Below are positions 20,675 to 25,896 of a stretch of 64,000 nt of DNA, one piece after another; the first letter of the stretch is position 1; each line of letters starts with the position of its first letter. The notes under the pieces are model-generated. The model worked only from the letters and a program-made list of their open reading frames with translations, ran no database searches and was not told where the DNA came from. A program made the position numbers and the translations under genes. The stretch is from NCBI RefSeq assembly GCF_900302475.1, contig NZ_OMOQ01000001.1, positions 558,001-622,000 on the forward strand, given 5' to 3'. Source of the DNA: Defluviimonas aquaemixtae (lineage in GTDB: Bacteria > Pseudomonadota > Alphaproteobacteria > Rhodobacterales > Rhodobacteraceae).

Positions 20675-21325
20675 CTAGCCCTGCCAGTGCGAGATTCGGA
20701 CGTCGTCCATCCAGTAGCCCGTAGGACCCGTGGCGTTGAGAAGCTGGACCGCGATCCCGACATGGGACCCGGGAAAGTCGTCTGCGTCGGGAAAGGCGCC
20801 CGCGACGCCGCCGCCGCTGTCGGCCGCGCCCGAGAGGCTCACACCCCATTGATCGGTGACGGGATTGAGGCTCACGAAGACCGCGTGTTCGCCCGTGCCG
20901 GAATAGCTGCCGATCGAGTTGCCGTTGGCGTAGACGAGCCCCTGCTCGAAATTGAGCCTCAGCGGGAATTTGTCGAAATCGACCCAGATGTTGATCTCGA
21001 CCTGGGCGCCGCTGCCCATGCGGCCCGACCACGACAGGAAGACCGGCTTCGTCTGGTCGAAGATCGGCGCGGCGTACATGATCACGCGAGGCGCAGTGCG
21101 GCTGCTCGGCCCGTCGATCCTGAGCGACTGCTCGCCCTCAAGCGGCAGCGCGGTCGTGACGCTGACCGCGCCCGGGCCTTCGGCGAAGGTGAGCGAGTCG
21201 GCGGGCGCGCCGGCCGGATTGGCAAGCGGCGCGCTGCCGGCCGGATCAGCCTCAAAGTCGTCCCTGAAGATCGCCGTGCAGGCGGTTAGCGCGACGGGCA
21301 GCAGAAATGATGCGTAGCGCGGCAT
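20675..21325 (-). CDS. Lipoprotein with probable concanavalin-like beta-sandwich
   Basis: This 216-residue protein begins with a lipobox signal (MPRYASFLLPVALTAC, cleavage before Cys16), so it should be lipid-anchored. The body contains FRDDFEADPAG near the start and ends GYWMDDVRISHWQ. This beginning and end are common in secreted LamG/glycosyl-hydrolase-associated jelly-roll domains, suggesting carbohydrate or surface binding. No catalytic residues are recognisable. It sits among small hypothetical genes in an accessory stretch. Confidence 0.75.
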   Translation of the reverse strand: MPRYASFLLPVALTACTAIFRDDFEADPAGSAPLANPAGAPADSLTFAEGPGAVSVTTALPLEGEQSLRIDGPSSRTAPRVIMYAAPIFDQTKPVFLSWSGRMGSGAQVEINIWVDFDKFPLRLNFEQGLVYANGNSIGSYSGTGEHAVFVSLNPVTDQWGVSLSGAADSGGGVAGAFPDADDFPGSHVGIAVQLLNATGPTGYWMDDVRISHWQG

Positions 21326-22449: not shown

Positions 22450-22776
22450 ATGATGCTTTACGGCATTGCAACATGTGATTCCTGCCGCAAGGCGCTGAAG
22501 GCGATCCGTGCGGCCGGGCGCGAGGTTGCGTTTCGGGACATCCGCCAGAAACCTCTTGGGCCCAACGAGCGGCGCGAGTTTATCGATGCCTTTGGCGAGG
22601 CCCTGATCAATCGCGCCTCTGCGACGTGGCGCGGCTTGTCAGACGAGGAGCGGGCAGCGTCGCCGGACGCGCTTTTGGAGCGACACCCAACGCTCATGAA
22701 ACGGCCTGTGATCCGTAATGGACAGAGCCTGCATCTCGGTTGGAAGGCTGGCGTGCAGGAGCTTGTTCTCAAATGA
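22450..22776 (+). CDS. ArsC/Spx-like (YffB-type) thioredoxin-fold protein
   Basis: This 108-residue protein has the ArsC-like fold. The active-site motif is CDSCRK near the N-terminus (YGIATCDSCRKALKAIRA). The later blocks FRDIRQKPLGPNERREFIDAFG and LLERHPTLMKRPVIRNGQSLHLGW contain the RP-V/I loop conserved in ArsC/Spx/YffB. It may reduce arsenate or, as YffB-type proteins, act as a glutathione-dependent oxidoreductase; no ars genes are nearby, so an arsenic role is unsupported. GGAGG precedes ATG 22450/22453. Confidence 0.85.
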   Translation: MMLYGIATCDSCRKALKAIRAAGREVAFRDIRQKPLGPNERREFIDAFGEALINRASATWRGLSDEERAASPDALLERHPTLMKRPVIRNGQSLHLGWKAGVQELVLK

Positions 22777-22822: not shown

Positions 22823-23029
22823 CTAGAGCAGTTTCAGATCGGACGCCGAGGAGCGGCCGTCGCGGCCGGCCTGCATCTCGAAAGCGACCTTCTGATTGTC
22901 GGCGAGGGTTTTCAACCCCGCCCGTTCGACCGCAGAGATGTGCACGAACACATCCTTGCCGCCGTCGTCGGGTGCGATAAATCCGTACCCTTTTGTCGTG
23001 TTAAACCATTTTACGGTGCCGGTGGCCAT
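22823..23029 (-). CDS. Cold-shock domain protein (CspA family)
   Basis: This 68-residue single cold-shock domain protein begins MATGTVKWFN. It contains the nucleic-acid binding motifs RNP1 (KGYGFI) and RNP2 (VFVHIS). It binds single-stranded RNA/DNA as an RNA chaperone. The start at 23029 is preferred over 23035 because GGAGG is then eight bases upstream. A rather long upstream gap (about 180 bases to the next gene) may encode the regulatory 5' leader common in csp genes. Confidence 0.95.
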   Translation of the reverse strand: MATGTVKWFNTTKGYGFIAPDDGGKDVFVHISAVERAGLKTLADNQKVAFEMQAGRDGRSSASDLKLL

Positions 23030-23208
23030 CCGCATATCCTCCGTCGCGTCGTCTTTCCCCGGGCGTGATTGCGCGGGGTCGTGCAGCCAGGTCTTCCAAG
23101 TCTTCCGGCTGCCCCGATAGCGAGGGAGCGGTAGGAAAGTCTGAATTCACGCCTGATGGATGATGAGCGATCCGGGGGAAAAATCAAGACGCATGCAACC
23201 GGTTAGCC

Positions 23209-23757
23209 CTATCGGCGCCGCCCCGACAGCATGCGGTCCAGCGACAGGGCGCCGCCGCCCAGCAGCACGAGAGTCGCGAGCAGCGCGATCCAGAGCGCCC
23301 TCTGATCGAGGATGAGCGCGCCCGACGCGGCGTCGAACCAGCGGCCGAGGTCGTCGCCCGCCACGCCATGGCCGACGATGTCAGTGGCGCTTTGGACGAC
23401 TACAAACCCGATCATGCCGAGGCTCGCGAGGCGGGTGAATAGCCCCAGTATGATCAGTGCAGGCAAGAGGAGCTCCGCCCAGGTGCCGGCGACCGCGACC
23501 GCCCAGTGAAACCATCCGAGCTGCGAAAAGTCGTAGCCCGACGCTTCGATCGTCTTGGGGAAGATCTGGATATAGGCGCCGTCGGAGGGCTGGAAGAGCC
23601 CTGCCACGCCTTCTCCGACCTTCGTGCGGGCGGAGTTCCAGAAGTAGACCAGCAGCACTCCGGCAAAGACCAGCCGGGCGATGAGCGGCACAAGCGCGGG
23701 CGCGATTCGGTCCAGTGCCTGGGCCGCGCGGTCGTAGGGCGCAATAAGGGCGTTCAC
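23209..23757 (-). CDS. DoxX-family membrane protein of the bufferin operon (GigT/BufD-like)
   Basis: This 182-residue membrane protein has about four transmembrane segments and DoxX-family character (ARLVFAGVLLVYFWNSARTK ... GTWAELLLPALIILGLFTRLASLGMIGFVVVQ). It is the last gene of the operon and overlaps bufC by four bases (ATGA). In gig-type operons (gigPABT of Cupriavidus) a DoxX protein accompanies the DUF2282, DUF692 and DUF2063 proteins, so position supports the same role, perhaps membrane electron transfer or export. The exact function is not established. Confidence 0.85.
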   Translation of the reverse strand: MNALIAPYDRAAQALDRIAPALVPLIARLVFAGVLLVYFWNSARTKVGEGVAGLFQPSDGAYIQIFPKTIEASGYDFSQLGWFHWAVAVAGTWAELLLPALIILGLFTRLASLGMIGFVVVQSATDIVGHGVAGDDLGRWFDAASGALILDQRALWIALLATLVLLGGGALSLDRMLSGRRR

Positions 23758-24497
23758 GTTGAATCTCCGGTCTTGATGTTCGCGATGGCGCCCGCGCCGA
23801 TCAGGAGCCCCAGGGTCGCCGTGACGTCGAATTCTCCGGCGCTGTCGAGCGCTTCGCCCACCGTCGAGCCGGCGATGAGGCGTTCGACGAAATCACCTGC
23901 GCCCACAGGCAGGAGGCGGGGGTCGGGATCGAATTCGGGACGCACGATCAGCACGTCCTCGGCCACCGTGGCCTTGGGTGACGGCGCGCCGCGCATATTC
24001 GCCGACCAGATCGTATGGATCGGCCAGCGCGACCGCACGAGCCGCACGGGTGGTGCAAGCTCGAACCGCGCGGAGATGAGCGCGTCGGGGGCGAGGGCAG
24101 CGAGCGCGGCGGGATCGGCGGGCTCGGCGTCGGCCGCGTGATAGGACCTGCGGACTGCAAGTTCCAGCCGGGCCATGTCGGGCAGGTAGCCCAGATGCGC
24201 GACCGGTGGAAAATGTTCGAGGAAGGTCGGCATCGCCTCGCCGTAGAACATCATCAGCGGCGAGGCCGGCGGATGGGCGCGCAGGTGTTCGCGCGCCATG
24301 GCGGCGAAGAACTCCTCGCCCACGAGCTTCAGGATGACCGGAAAGGCCTGCCTGAGCGCCTCGGTCAGCGAGACGGTGACATTGTTGCGGTAGACGTTGA
24401 AGCGGCGTCCCGCCGGGCGGCCCTGCGGGTCGGTGAGACGCGCCGGCGCCGGTCGCGCGGGGTCGAGGAGCGCGGCGCGGAACTCGGACTGGTTCAT
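23754..24497 (-). CDS. bufC: DUF2063 protein, bufferin maturation partner
   Basis: This 247-residue cytoplasmic protein matches DUF2063 (putative DNA-binding domain family, now known as partner of MNIO enzymes). The N-terminal block is FRAALLDPARPAPARL and RRFNVYRNNVTVSLTEALRQAFPVILKLVGEEFF. LEHFPPVAHLGYLPDMARLELAVRRSYHA is also typical. In characterised bufferin systems it binds the precursor and aids the DUF692 enzyme. It overlaps bufB and the DoxX gene by four bases each, indicating translational coupling. Confidence 0.9.
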   Translation of the reverse strand: MNQSEFRAALLDPARPAPARLTDPQGRPAGRRFNVYRNNVTVSLTEALRQAFPVILKLVGEEFFAAMAREHLRAHPPASPLMMFYGEAMPTFLEHFPPVAHLGYLPDMARLELAVRRSYHAADAEPADPAALAALAPDALISARFELAPPVRLVRSRWPIHTIWSANMRGAPSPKATVAEDVLIVRPEFDPDPRLLPVGAGDFVERLIAGSTVGEALDSAGEFDVTATLGLLIGAGAIANIKTGDST

Positions 24498-25348
24498 GCG
24501 GCGACCCTGTCGAGAATCCGGGCGGCGCGCGCGGCCTCATCGGCGAGGACCGGCCAGTCGGGCACGTCGTTGTCCCATTCAATGAGCGTGGGCTTCGGTC
24601 CACCGGTGCGGATCGTGTGATCGTACAGCTTCCATACCGGATCGACGACCTCGGAGCCGTGTGCGTCGATCAGCAAGGGCGCGCCGGTATCGTCGTGATC
24701 CTCGTCATGTCCGCCGAGATGGACCTCGCCAACAAGGTGATGCGGGAACTGGTCGATATAGGTGTTGGCGTCGGTCTGGCGGTTCGTCGAGGAGACGAAG
24801 ACGTTGTTGACGTCGAGGAGAAGGCCGCAGCCCGTGCGCTTGGCGATCTCGGTCAGGAAGTCGATCTCGTCCATCTCCGTTTCGGCGAATTCGACATAGA
24901 CCGAGGGATTTTCCAGCAGCATCCGCCGGCCGACATGGTCCTGCACCTGCTCAACATGCTCCGCGACGCGGGCGAGCGTTTTCTCGGTATAGGGCAAGGG
25001 CAGGAGGTCGTTCAGGAATTCGGCATCATGCGTAGACCAGGCGAGATGTTCGGAAAAGCTTGCCGGACCAAGCCAGCCGCAGAGATGCTTCAACCGGTCG
25101 AGATGGTCGCGATCGAGCGGCGTCTCGCCACCGATAGAAAGGCCCACTCCGTGCACCGAAATCGGGAAGCGCTCTGCCAGATGGCGCAACTGCGCGAGAG
25201 GACGGCCGCCGTCGCCCATGTAGTTTTCTGCGTGGATTTCAAGCCACGCGACCGGGTCTGGGGCCTCTAGAATGTTCGAGAAGTGCTGCGGCTTGTAGCC
25301 GACGCCGGGGCGGGCGGGCAGGGTCTGTCTTGCGGTCTGGTCCAGCAT
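24494..25348 (-). CDS. bufB: DUF692 multinuclear non-heme iron oxidase (MNIO), bufferin maturase
   Basis: This 284-residue TIM-barrel protein is an MNIO (DUF692). Metal-binding and active-site blocks are intact: AWLEIHAENYMG, ISVHGVGLSIGG, FSEHLAWS, LLENPSVY, GLLLDVNNVFVS, GEVHLGGH, IDAHGSEV and LIEWDNDVP. MNIO enzymes oxidise Cys residues of ribosomal peptides; in bufferin systems they convert Cys of the DUF2282 precursor to thiooxazoles using iron and oxygen. It lies between the precursor gene bufA and bufC. The start at 25348 follows the strong intergenic hairpin. Longer frames to 25648 cover bufA and are not real. Confidence 0.93.
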   Translation of the reverse strand: MLDQTARQTLPARPGVGYKPQHFSNILEAPDPVAWLEIHAENYMGDGGRPLAQLRHLAERFPISVHGVGLSIGGETPLDRDHLDRLKHLCGWLGPASFSEHLAWSTHDAEFLNDLLPLPYTEKTLARVAEHVEQVQDHVGRRMLLENPSVYVEFAETEMDEIDFLTEIAKRTGCGLLLDVNNVFVSSTNRQTDANTYIDQFPHHLVGEVHLGGHDEDHDDTGAPLLIDAHGSEVVDPVWKLYDHTIRTGGPKPTLIEWDNDVPDWPVLADEAARAARILDRVAA

Positions 25349-25369
25349 CGCGTCCCCCGATCGTCTGGA

Positions 25370-25395
25370 GCCTCTCCGGCCAAAGCCGGAGAGGC
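25370..25395 (-). promoter_or_regulatory. Strong stem-loop between bufA and bufB
   Basis: A perfect 11-bp inverted repeat (GCCTCTCCGGC / GCCGGAGAGGC) with a four-base loop lies between the bufA stop (25407) and the bufB start (25348). No T-run follows, so it is better read as an mRNA-processing or stabilising hairpin that raises precursor over enzyme expression than as a full terminator. Confidence 0.7.
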
Positions 25396-25406
25396 TCGTG
25401 TCACTG

Positions 25407-25700
25407 TCAGCCCTGCGGCAGGTCGCGGTCAAGCGCTTCGAGCGAGCCCATGCGGCCATCCGGCAGTTCCATGGTCTCGCAGGAGCCGGCCGGGACGAGC
25501 TTCCAGGCGTTGCCCTGATAGTCCACCGACGAGGTGCCGGCGCAGGTTGTGCCCGGGCCCGCGGCGCAGTCGTTCTGACCGGCCAGCGAGACGCCGAAGC
25601 ACTTCTCTTTGTCTTGCGCGGCGGCAGGCGTCGCGACATGAGCGGCAAGAGCGGCGGCGAGCGAGCCGGCGACGGCGAGGGTTTTCATGGATTGAGACAT
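25407..25700 (-). CDS. bufA: Bufferin precursor peptide (DUF2282 family)
   Basis: This 97-residue precursor has a long Sec-type signal peptide (residues 1-29, ending TPAAAQ). The core has four Cys at positions 34, 45, 53 and 74, within [32 protein letters not shown] and VPAGSCETM. This is the DUF2282 (BufA1/GigP) pattern. Such peptides are Cys-modified by the MNIO, exported, and bind copper. It is the first gene of the operon bufA-bufB-bufC-doxX and is separated from bufB by a strong hairpin. ATG 25700 is chosen for the signal peptide and upstream GGGAAA. Confidence 0.9.
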
Positions 25701-25896
25701 AGGTGTTTCCCTTGTTGAAATGTCGTGCGTCGTCAGAGCGACAGCGCAACCCTGCCAAGAGCCCTCTACAAATTCCATTCACGAACCCGTGGGCCACGGC
25801 GGCGTGATGAAATGTAACGGGCCGAACACACGTATGGGCGCCTTGTCAGTGCCGCCTGAGCGTGTGAAGTTTTCCACATAGAGCATTGATTTTCAG

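Follow-up and report, generated by a model that had tools for sequence, protein, structure and literature searches.

The bufA-bufB-bufC-doxX operon of Defluviimonas aquaemixtae carries a strong hairpin between its precursor gene and its enzyme gene, and a strong hairpin is present just after bufA in 95 of the 96 Rhodobacteraceae loci examined, its structure rather than its sequence being conserved within the genus. On balance, the operon is probably to be read as a copper-buffering operon of the Buf1 type, encoding a RiPP, in which the hairpin maintains an excess of precursor message. In its gene set the operon is an ordinary Buf1 member, and the hairpin is what is new relative to the literature searched: PMC12452194, PMC13097082 and PMC12538549 use neither "hairpin" nor "stem-loop" in their main text, "hairpin" does not occur in PMC3511200, and a literature search found no paper linking bufferin operons with an intercistronic hairpin. 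A periplasmic copper buffer can be expected to work only where the peptide is more numerous than its biosynthetic enzymes, and a conserved hairpin at the boundary of precursor and enzyme is a concrete candidate answer to the question of how that ratio is set; peptides modified by MNIO enzymes are widespread. All positions given below are those of the window, which is the whole stretch of 64,000 nucleotides that was analysed.

Table 1. Features of the operon and of the DNA preceding it, in window positions.
Feature	Position	Strand	Basis or remark
doxX, DoxX-family membrane protein, 182 aa, GTG start	23209..23757	-	PF07681, 30.9 bits (cut-off 23.6)
bufC, DUF2063 partner protein, 247 aa	23754..24497	-	PF09836, 92.3 bits (cut-off 27.2)
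bufB, MNIO enzyme, 284 aa, ATG start at 25348	24494..25348	-	NCBIfam MNIO_BufB (NF050167), Pfam PF05114
Ribosome-site-like GGGGGA of bufB	25353..25358	-	read from sequence; outside hairpin
Intercistronic hairpin, 13-bp stem, 4-base loop	25368..25397	-	9 bases after bufA stop
bufA, DUF2282 bufferin precursor, 97 aa	25407..25700	-	PF10048, 88.7 bits (cut-off 22.4)
Weak 5-bp dyad in bufA leader, suggestive	25728..25743	-	genus alignment, family shuffles
Double-dyad element TSACG-N4-YGTGR-NN-CACR-N4-YGTGA-N-TGG, possible regulator site	25775..25807	-	genus alignment

Gene content and class of the operon

Four open reading frames lie head to tail on the minus strand in the order bufA, bufB, bufC and doxX (Table 1). 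The original prediction of a DUF2282 precursor with four Cys, a DUF692 (MNIO) enzyme, a DUF2063 protein and a DoxX protein agrees with the profile searches, in which all four products score above their Pfam cut-offs. BufB matches the NCBIfam MNIO_BufB model (NF050167) with 377.7 bits against a cut-off of 310 and the Pfam MbnB_TglH_ChrH model (PF05114) with 351.9 bits, also above the cut-off; among solved structures 3BWW is the closest to it in sequence (E 4e-43), and its nearest named relatives are proteins of a Rhodobacteraceae MAG (84%) and of two Defluviimonas (83 and 80%). BufC reaches 46.7 bits with the NCBIfam HvfC model, under the cut-off of 142, and has no match in the PDB at E 0.001; DoxX reaches 27.4 bits with the NCBIfam HvfX family, under the cut-off of 80. 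The genome (4.2 Mb in 18 contigs) contains a single DUF2282 match, which is bufA, and a single MNIO match, which is bufB. The N terminus of the bufA product, judged by eye, has Lys, a hydrophobic stretch and an AAA-Q site, an apparent Sec signal peptide extending to about residue 28. The genes had also been thought to be coupled throughout by ATGA overlaps, which holds for bufB and bufC; the overlap of bufC and doxX is GTGA, whereas 58 bases lie between bufA and bufB.

By its sequence the operon is almost certainly of the Buf1 type, and its assignment to the bufferin family with the gene order of gigPABT, as first proposed, is borne out; the same order is found in Caulobacter CC3254-3257. The precursor is classed as Buf1 because it falls far below the NCBIfam BufA2 model (NF050166; 21.1 bits, cut-off 60) and has four Cys (positions 34, 45, 53 and 74), and a Buf2 bufferin, which would have six conserved ones, was rejected on these grounds. 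A four-Cys core is matched by 94 of 95 Rhodobacteraceae precursors, a count that is partly circular in that precursors were picked by their four-Cys pattern; Asp precedes the second Cys in 92 of the 95 and Thr the third Cys in 92. The suggestion that the Cys core of BufA might carry a modification pattern of its own thus finds no footing, the four-Cys core being usual for the family and the window peptide conforming to it (D44-C45, T52-C53). In Buf1 bufferins the central Cys are reported to be modified and the outer two to form a disulfide (PMC12452194), and 5-thiooxazoles have been assigned in bufferin 1 of Caulobacter (PMC13097082). In fontiphorin, each modified motif loses 4 H (PMC13097082).

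Two described operons have the same make-up. Caulobacter CC3254-3257 (CCNA_03363-03366) encodes DUF2282, DUF692, DUF2063 and DoxX proteins in one order and direction, as here (PMC3511200, PMC8224329). The gigPABT genes of Cupriavidus metallidurans have the four-gene order seen here, GigP being a 94-aa preprotein with four Cys, and were found by RT-PCR to form an operon that is induced by copper (PMC10304878). Carriers among the Rhodobacteraceae include Ruegeria pomeroyi and Leisingera strains (loci L076, L106 and L107). A BufB match is absent from three of the 21 congeners searched (G008, G009 and G014), one of which (G008) is listed as 100% complete; therefore the operon is dispensable, and in G008 it has probably been lost.

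The hairpin and its distribution

The 58-base gap between bufA and bufB holds GAGCCTCTCCGGC-TTTG-GCCGGAGAGGCTC, a perfect stem of 13 bp that sits upstream of the bufB ribosome site and leaves that site uncovered. The 81 bases around it have a folding z-score of -3.95, and none of 200 shuffles was as stable. A search of the window's own genome at up to two mismatches found the hairpin nowhere else, and its being a repeat of that genome was rejected on this single occurrence. All 18 congeners with a BufB match, out of the 21 searched, have a stem score of at least 25, and the 19 hairpins of the genus, the window's included, all differ in sequence. Over the 96 Rhodobacteraceae loci the score after bufA is at least 23 in all but one (L078, score 21), with a median of 30.5 against a shuffle mean of 15.5, and 92 different hairpin sequences occur; the 96 include the window itself and probably three species twice (L007/L084, L009/L031 and L018/L032, with identical hairpins), and the hairpins of L071 and L091 are identical as well. 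Look-alike palindromes of the GTAAGGTGGG type form the hairpins of L040, L043, L050, L060, L065 and L066, and are perhaps a repeat family entering the gap between bufA and bufB.

The gap between bufA and bufB is exceptional among the gaps of the same loci. Of 80 named loci, 75 were counted (L046, L063, L073, L079 and L109 gave no pair of bufA and bufB, and L028 and L029 likewise had none by script), and a score of at least 23 was found in 74 of 75 bufA gaps versus 18 of 88 other gaps (40-150 bases) between genes on the same strand (Fisher p about 1e-27, a value that treats related loci as independent, which they are not), the control gene models being rough longest-ORF calls. Of the 18 control gaps with such a score, two (L035 and L070) are in fact the gap between bufA and bufB read in another frame; therefore the control rate is if anything lower. 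Where genes converge in the 75 loci, 41 of 266 ends reach the same score; so do 3.9% of shuffled bufA gaps, and a stem this strong was found after doxX in 4 of 45 loci.

Conservation of the structure within the genus is also seen in the pairing itself. Of the 19 genus gaps, 16 were aligned with MAFFT (L016, the most divergent upstream, L017 and L019 had been left out beforehand), and five of eight predicted pairs show compensatory double changes. For an 11-pair stem, the share of paired cells is 89.2% versus 81.0% in shuffles; the covariation score reaches 0.419 versus 0.252, with none of 500 shuffles as high, although these shuffles do not remove the relatedness of the sequences; with the partners slid, the score is at most 0.222. 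As many pairs with double changes as observed occurred in 57 of the 500 shuffles, and as many further pair types in 23.

The hairpin recurs outside the Rhodobacteraceae and is not universal there. In a wider survey of the 60 best-scoring loci, which are not a random draw and of which six had no pair of precursor and enzyme genes, a stem score of at least 23 after the precursor gene was found in 8 of 8 further Rhodobacteraceae loci, 17 of 37 loci of other alphaproteobacteria and 3 of 9 loci from other classes, versus 1-4% of shuffles; the 70 bases examined run into bufB in some loci (L126). Five loci from outside the Rhodobacteraceae that were kept apart (L023-L027) gave no score of at least 23. 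The hairpin is thus missing in 20 of 37, 6 of 9 and 5 of 5 loci outside the family; therefore the operon can work without it. Seven precursors from outside the family, some from outside the class, look like Buf2 by their Cys-Lys motifs (L148, L149, L152, L154, L156, L159 and L167), and a strong hairpin follows every one of them; for L149, the domain of the enzyme starts 664 bases further on.

Possible functions of the hairpin

Stabilization of the bufA message by the hairpin, to which an even chance is given, would work as follows. One message, predicted to start upstream of bufA, would span the operon; the hairpin after the bufA stop would shield the bufA segment from 3' decay while the bufBCD segment (bufB, bufC and doxX) decays; and the peptide, needed in bulk, would be made in excess over its modifying proteins. 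For the puf operon of Rhodobacter, Klug in 1987 reportedly measured differential mRNA stability, with a hairpin giving protection from 3' decay. The puf operon, which belongs to the same bacterial family, is said to resemble the present operon in having a strong hairpin directly after the genes of a product needed in excess; its mRNA stability was reportedly measured, whereas the bufA hairpin is known from structure and conservation. Clostridial SRPS operons similarly place a stem-loop behind one selected gene, at its 3' end within the operon (PMC8219983), the shared transcript being presumed here; they are Gram-positive operons with measured transcript ratios (PMC8219983), whereas here the evidence is the DNA sequence.

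It is somewhat unlikely that the hairpin is a leaky transcription terminator, at which the majority of transcripts would stop behind bufA while a minority continue into bufBCD; peptide would again exceed enzyme, but the ratio would be fixed during transcription instead of through RNA decay. The strong, GC-rich stem suits termination, and a few loci (for example L035, L036 and L044) have T-rich tails. The window hairpin is followed by one T and is absent from the list of the terminator scan, and at least four T in the next eight bases follow 14 of 74 bufA hairpins versus 14 of 51 hairpins at convergent ends, the gene models behind that control being rough. The mean number of T in the next eight bases is nevertheless 2.4 after convergent-end hairpins and 2.3 after bufA hairpins (Mann-Whitney p 0.77), and scarce T is no argument against termination because the convergent-end hairpins show the same T counts. 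That the hairpin is an inert palindromic repeat settled by chance in a permissive gap is very improbable: look-alike palindromes of the type noted above do occur in several loci titled Yoonia or Loktanella and in L060, but the window hairpin is found once in its genome, the 96 loci have 92 different hairpins, bufA gaps far exceed control gaps (74/75 versus 18/88), and pairing changes are compensatory.

Regulation, copper and neighboring genes

The operon may be regulated through the double-dyad element upstream of bufA, whose full pattern has its only site in the genome there at up to two mismatches. Its relaxed core is present in the upstream regions of 16 of 19 genus loci and 31 of 76 other Rhodobacteraceae loci, the corresponding numbers for a half version being 16 and 53 (95 upstream regions, L056 having no start codon by the rule used); elsewhere in the DNA of the 76 loci (1.53 million bases with both strands included) the relaxed core occurs 0 times and the half version once. 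The patterns were drawn from the same sequences, and these counts are descriptive. When the genome was searched for a regulon with a shortened pattern, a single exact site and five sites with two mismatches were found, and the latter look like chance because a reversed-pattern control gave six. The leader of bufA contains a further, weaker dyad; over the family the leader stem scores a mean of 14.7 versus 12.8 in shuffles, a modest difference, and in the window another stem scored best.

The Caulobacter genes are under the control of SigF and NrsF, whereas the window genome has no match to NrsF (PF06532), for which the same search was positive in the Caulobacter control, and has a different conserved upstream element. 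SigF/NrsF genes accompany some Buf1 clusters and do not define the type. From the NrsF search, NrsF-type control was rejected for this genome; therefore the SigF/NrsF switch of Caulobacter is not present in its known form, and the conserved double dyad is a handle for finding what replaces it in Rhodobacteraceae. A broader proposal, put forward tentatively and at somewhat less than even confidence, is that bufferin operons use a sequence-free hairpin directly behind the gene of the precursor as a dial for the ratio of peptide to modifying enzyme, a hairpin that has arisen again and again in evolution (almost without exception in Rhodobacteraceae, frequently in other alphaproteobacteria, and also with Buf2-type precursors), and that the Rhodobacteraceae operon left SigF/NrsF control for a dedicated regulator that reads the double dyad.

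Protection of the periplasm from copper is a fair inference from relatives. By analogy with them, BufB with its partner BufC would convert the central Cys 45 and 53 of BufA into 5-thiooxazoles, the peptide would be exported by Sec with Cys 34 and 74 forming a disulfide, and the mature peptide would bind and sequester excess periplasmic copper; DoxX would have a role in the membrane. Caulobacter cells mutated in sigF are sensitive to copper, and copper induces the genes there (PMC8224329), and the share of Gig in the copper resistance of Cupriavidus is small (PMC10304878). It is unlikely that the operon serves mainly against another stress (gold, chromate, cadmium, mercury or redox) with copper secondary. 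Such a role would fit the first discovery of the Caulobacter SigF regulon through chromate and cadmium (PMC3511200), the induction of gig by gold and the small effect of gig on copper resistance (PMC10304878), the existence of bufferins with MerC fusions (PMC12452194), and the lack of an NrsF match in the genome, by which the inducer may differ; but loss of sigF in Caulobacter is reported to cause sensitivity to copper and not to chromate or cadmium (PMC8224329), and thiooxazole peptides of the same class bind copper (PMC13097082). Among the papers listed by a literature search on DUF692 with Ruegeria, Rhodobacter and copper, none contains DUF692.

In Cupriavidus, rpoQ, which encodes an ECF sigma factor, and a gene for an anti-sigma factor are oriented divergently from gigPABT (PMC10304878), whereas here thrS lies upstream and no such pair recurs beside the operons of the family. 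Among the 28 gene clusters listed for the 75 named loci and judged by eye, none next to the operon looks like a regulator or sigma factor; thrS is clustered upstream of the operon in 56 of the 75, and an ArsR-type regulator fused to AHSA1 lies about 4 kb upstream, past thrS, in 11 of the 75. Downstream of doxX in the window are genes of an ArsC-family protein (22450-22776, plus strand) and a cold-shock protein (22823-23035, minus strand), and a 216-aa protein encoded at 20675-21325 on the minus strand, which starts with MPRYASFLLPVALTACTAIFRDDF and has no Pfam match at E 0.1, looks like a lipoprotein by eye.
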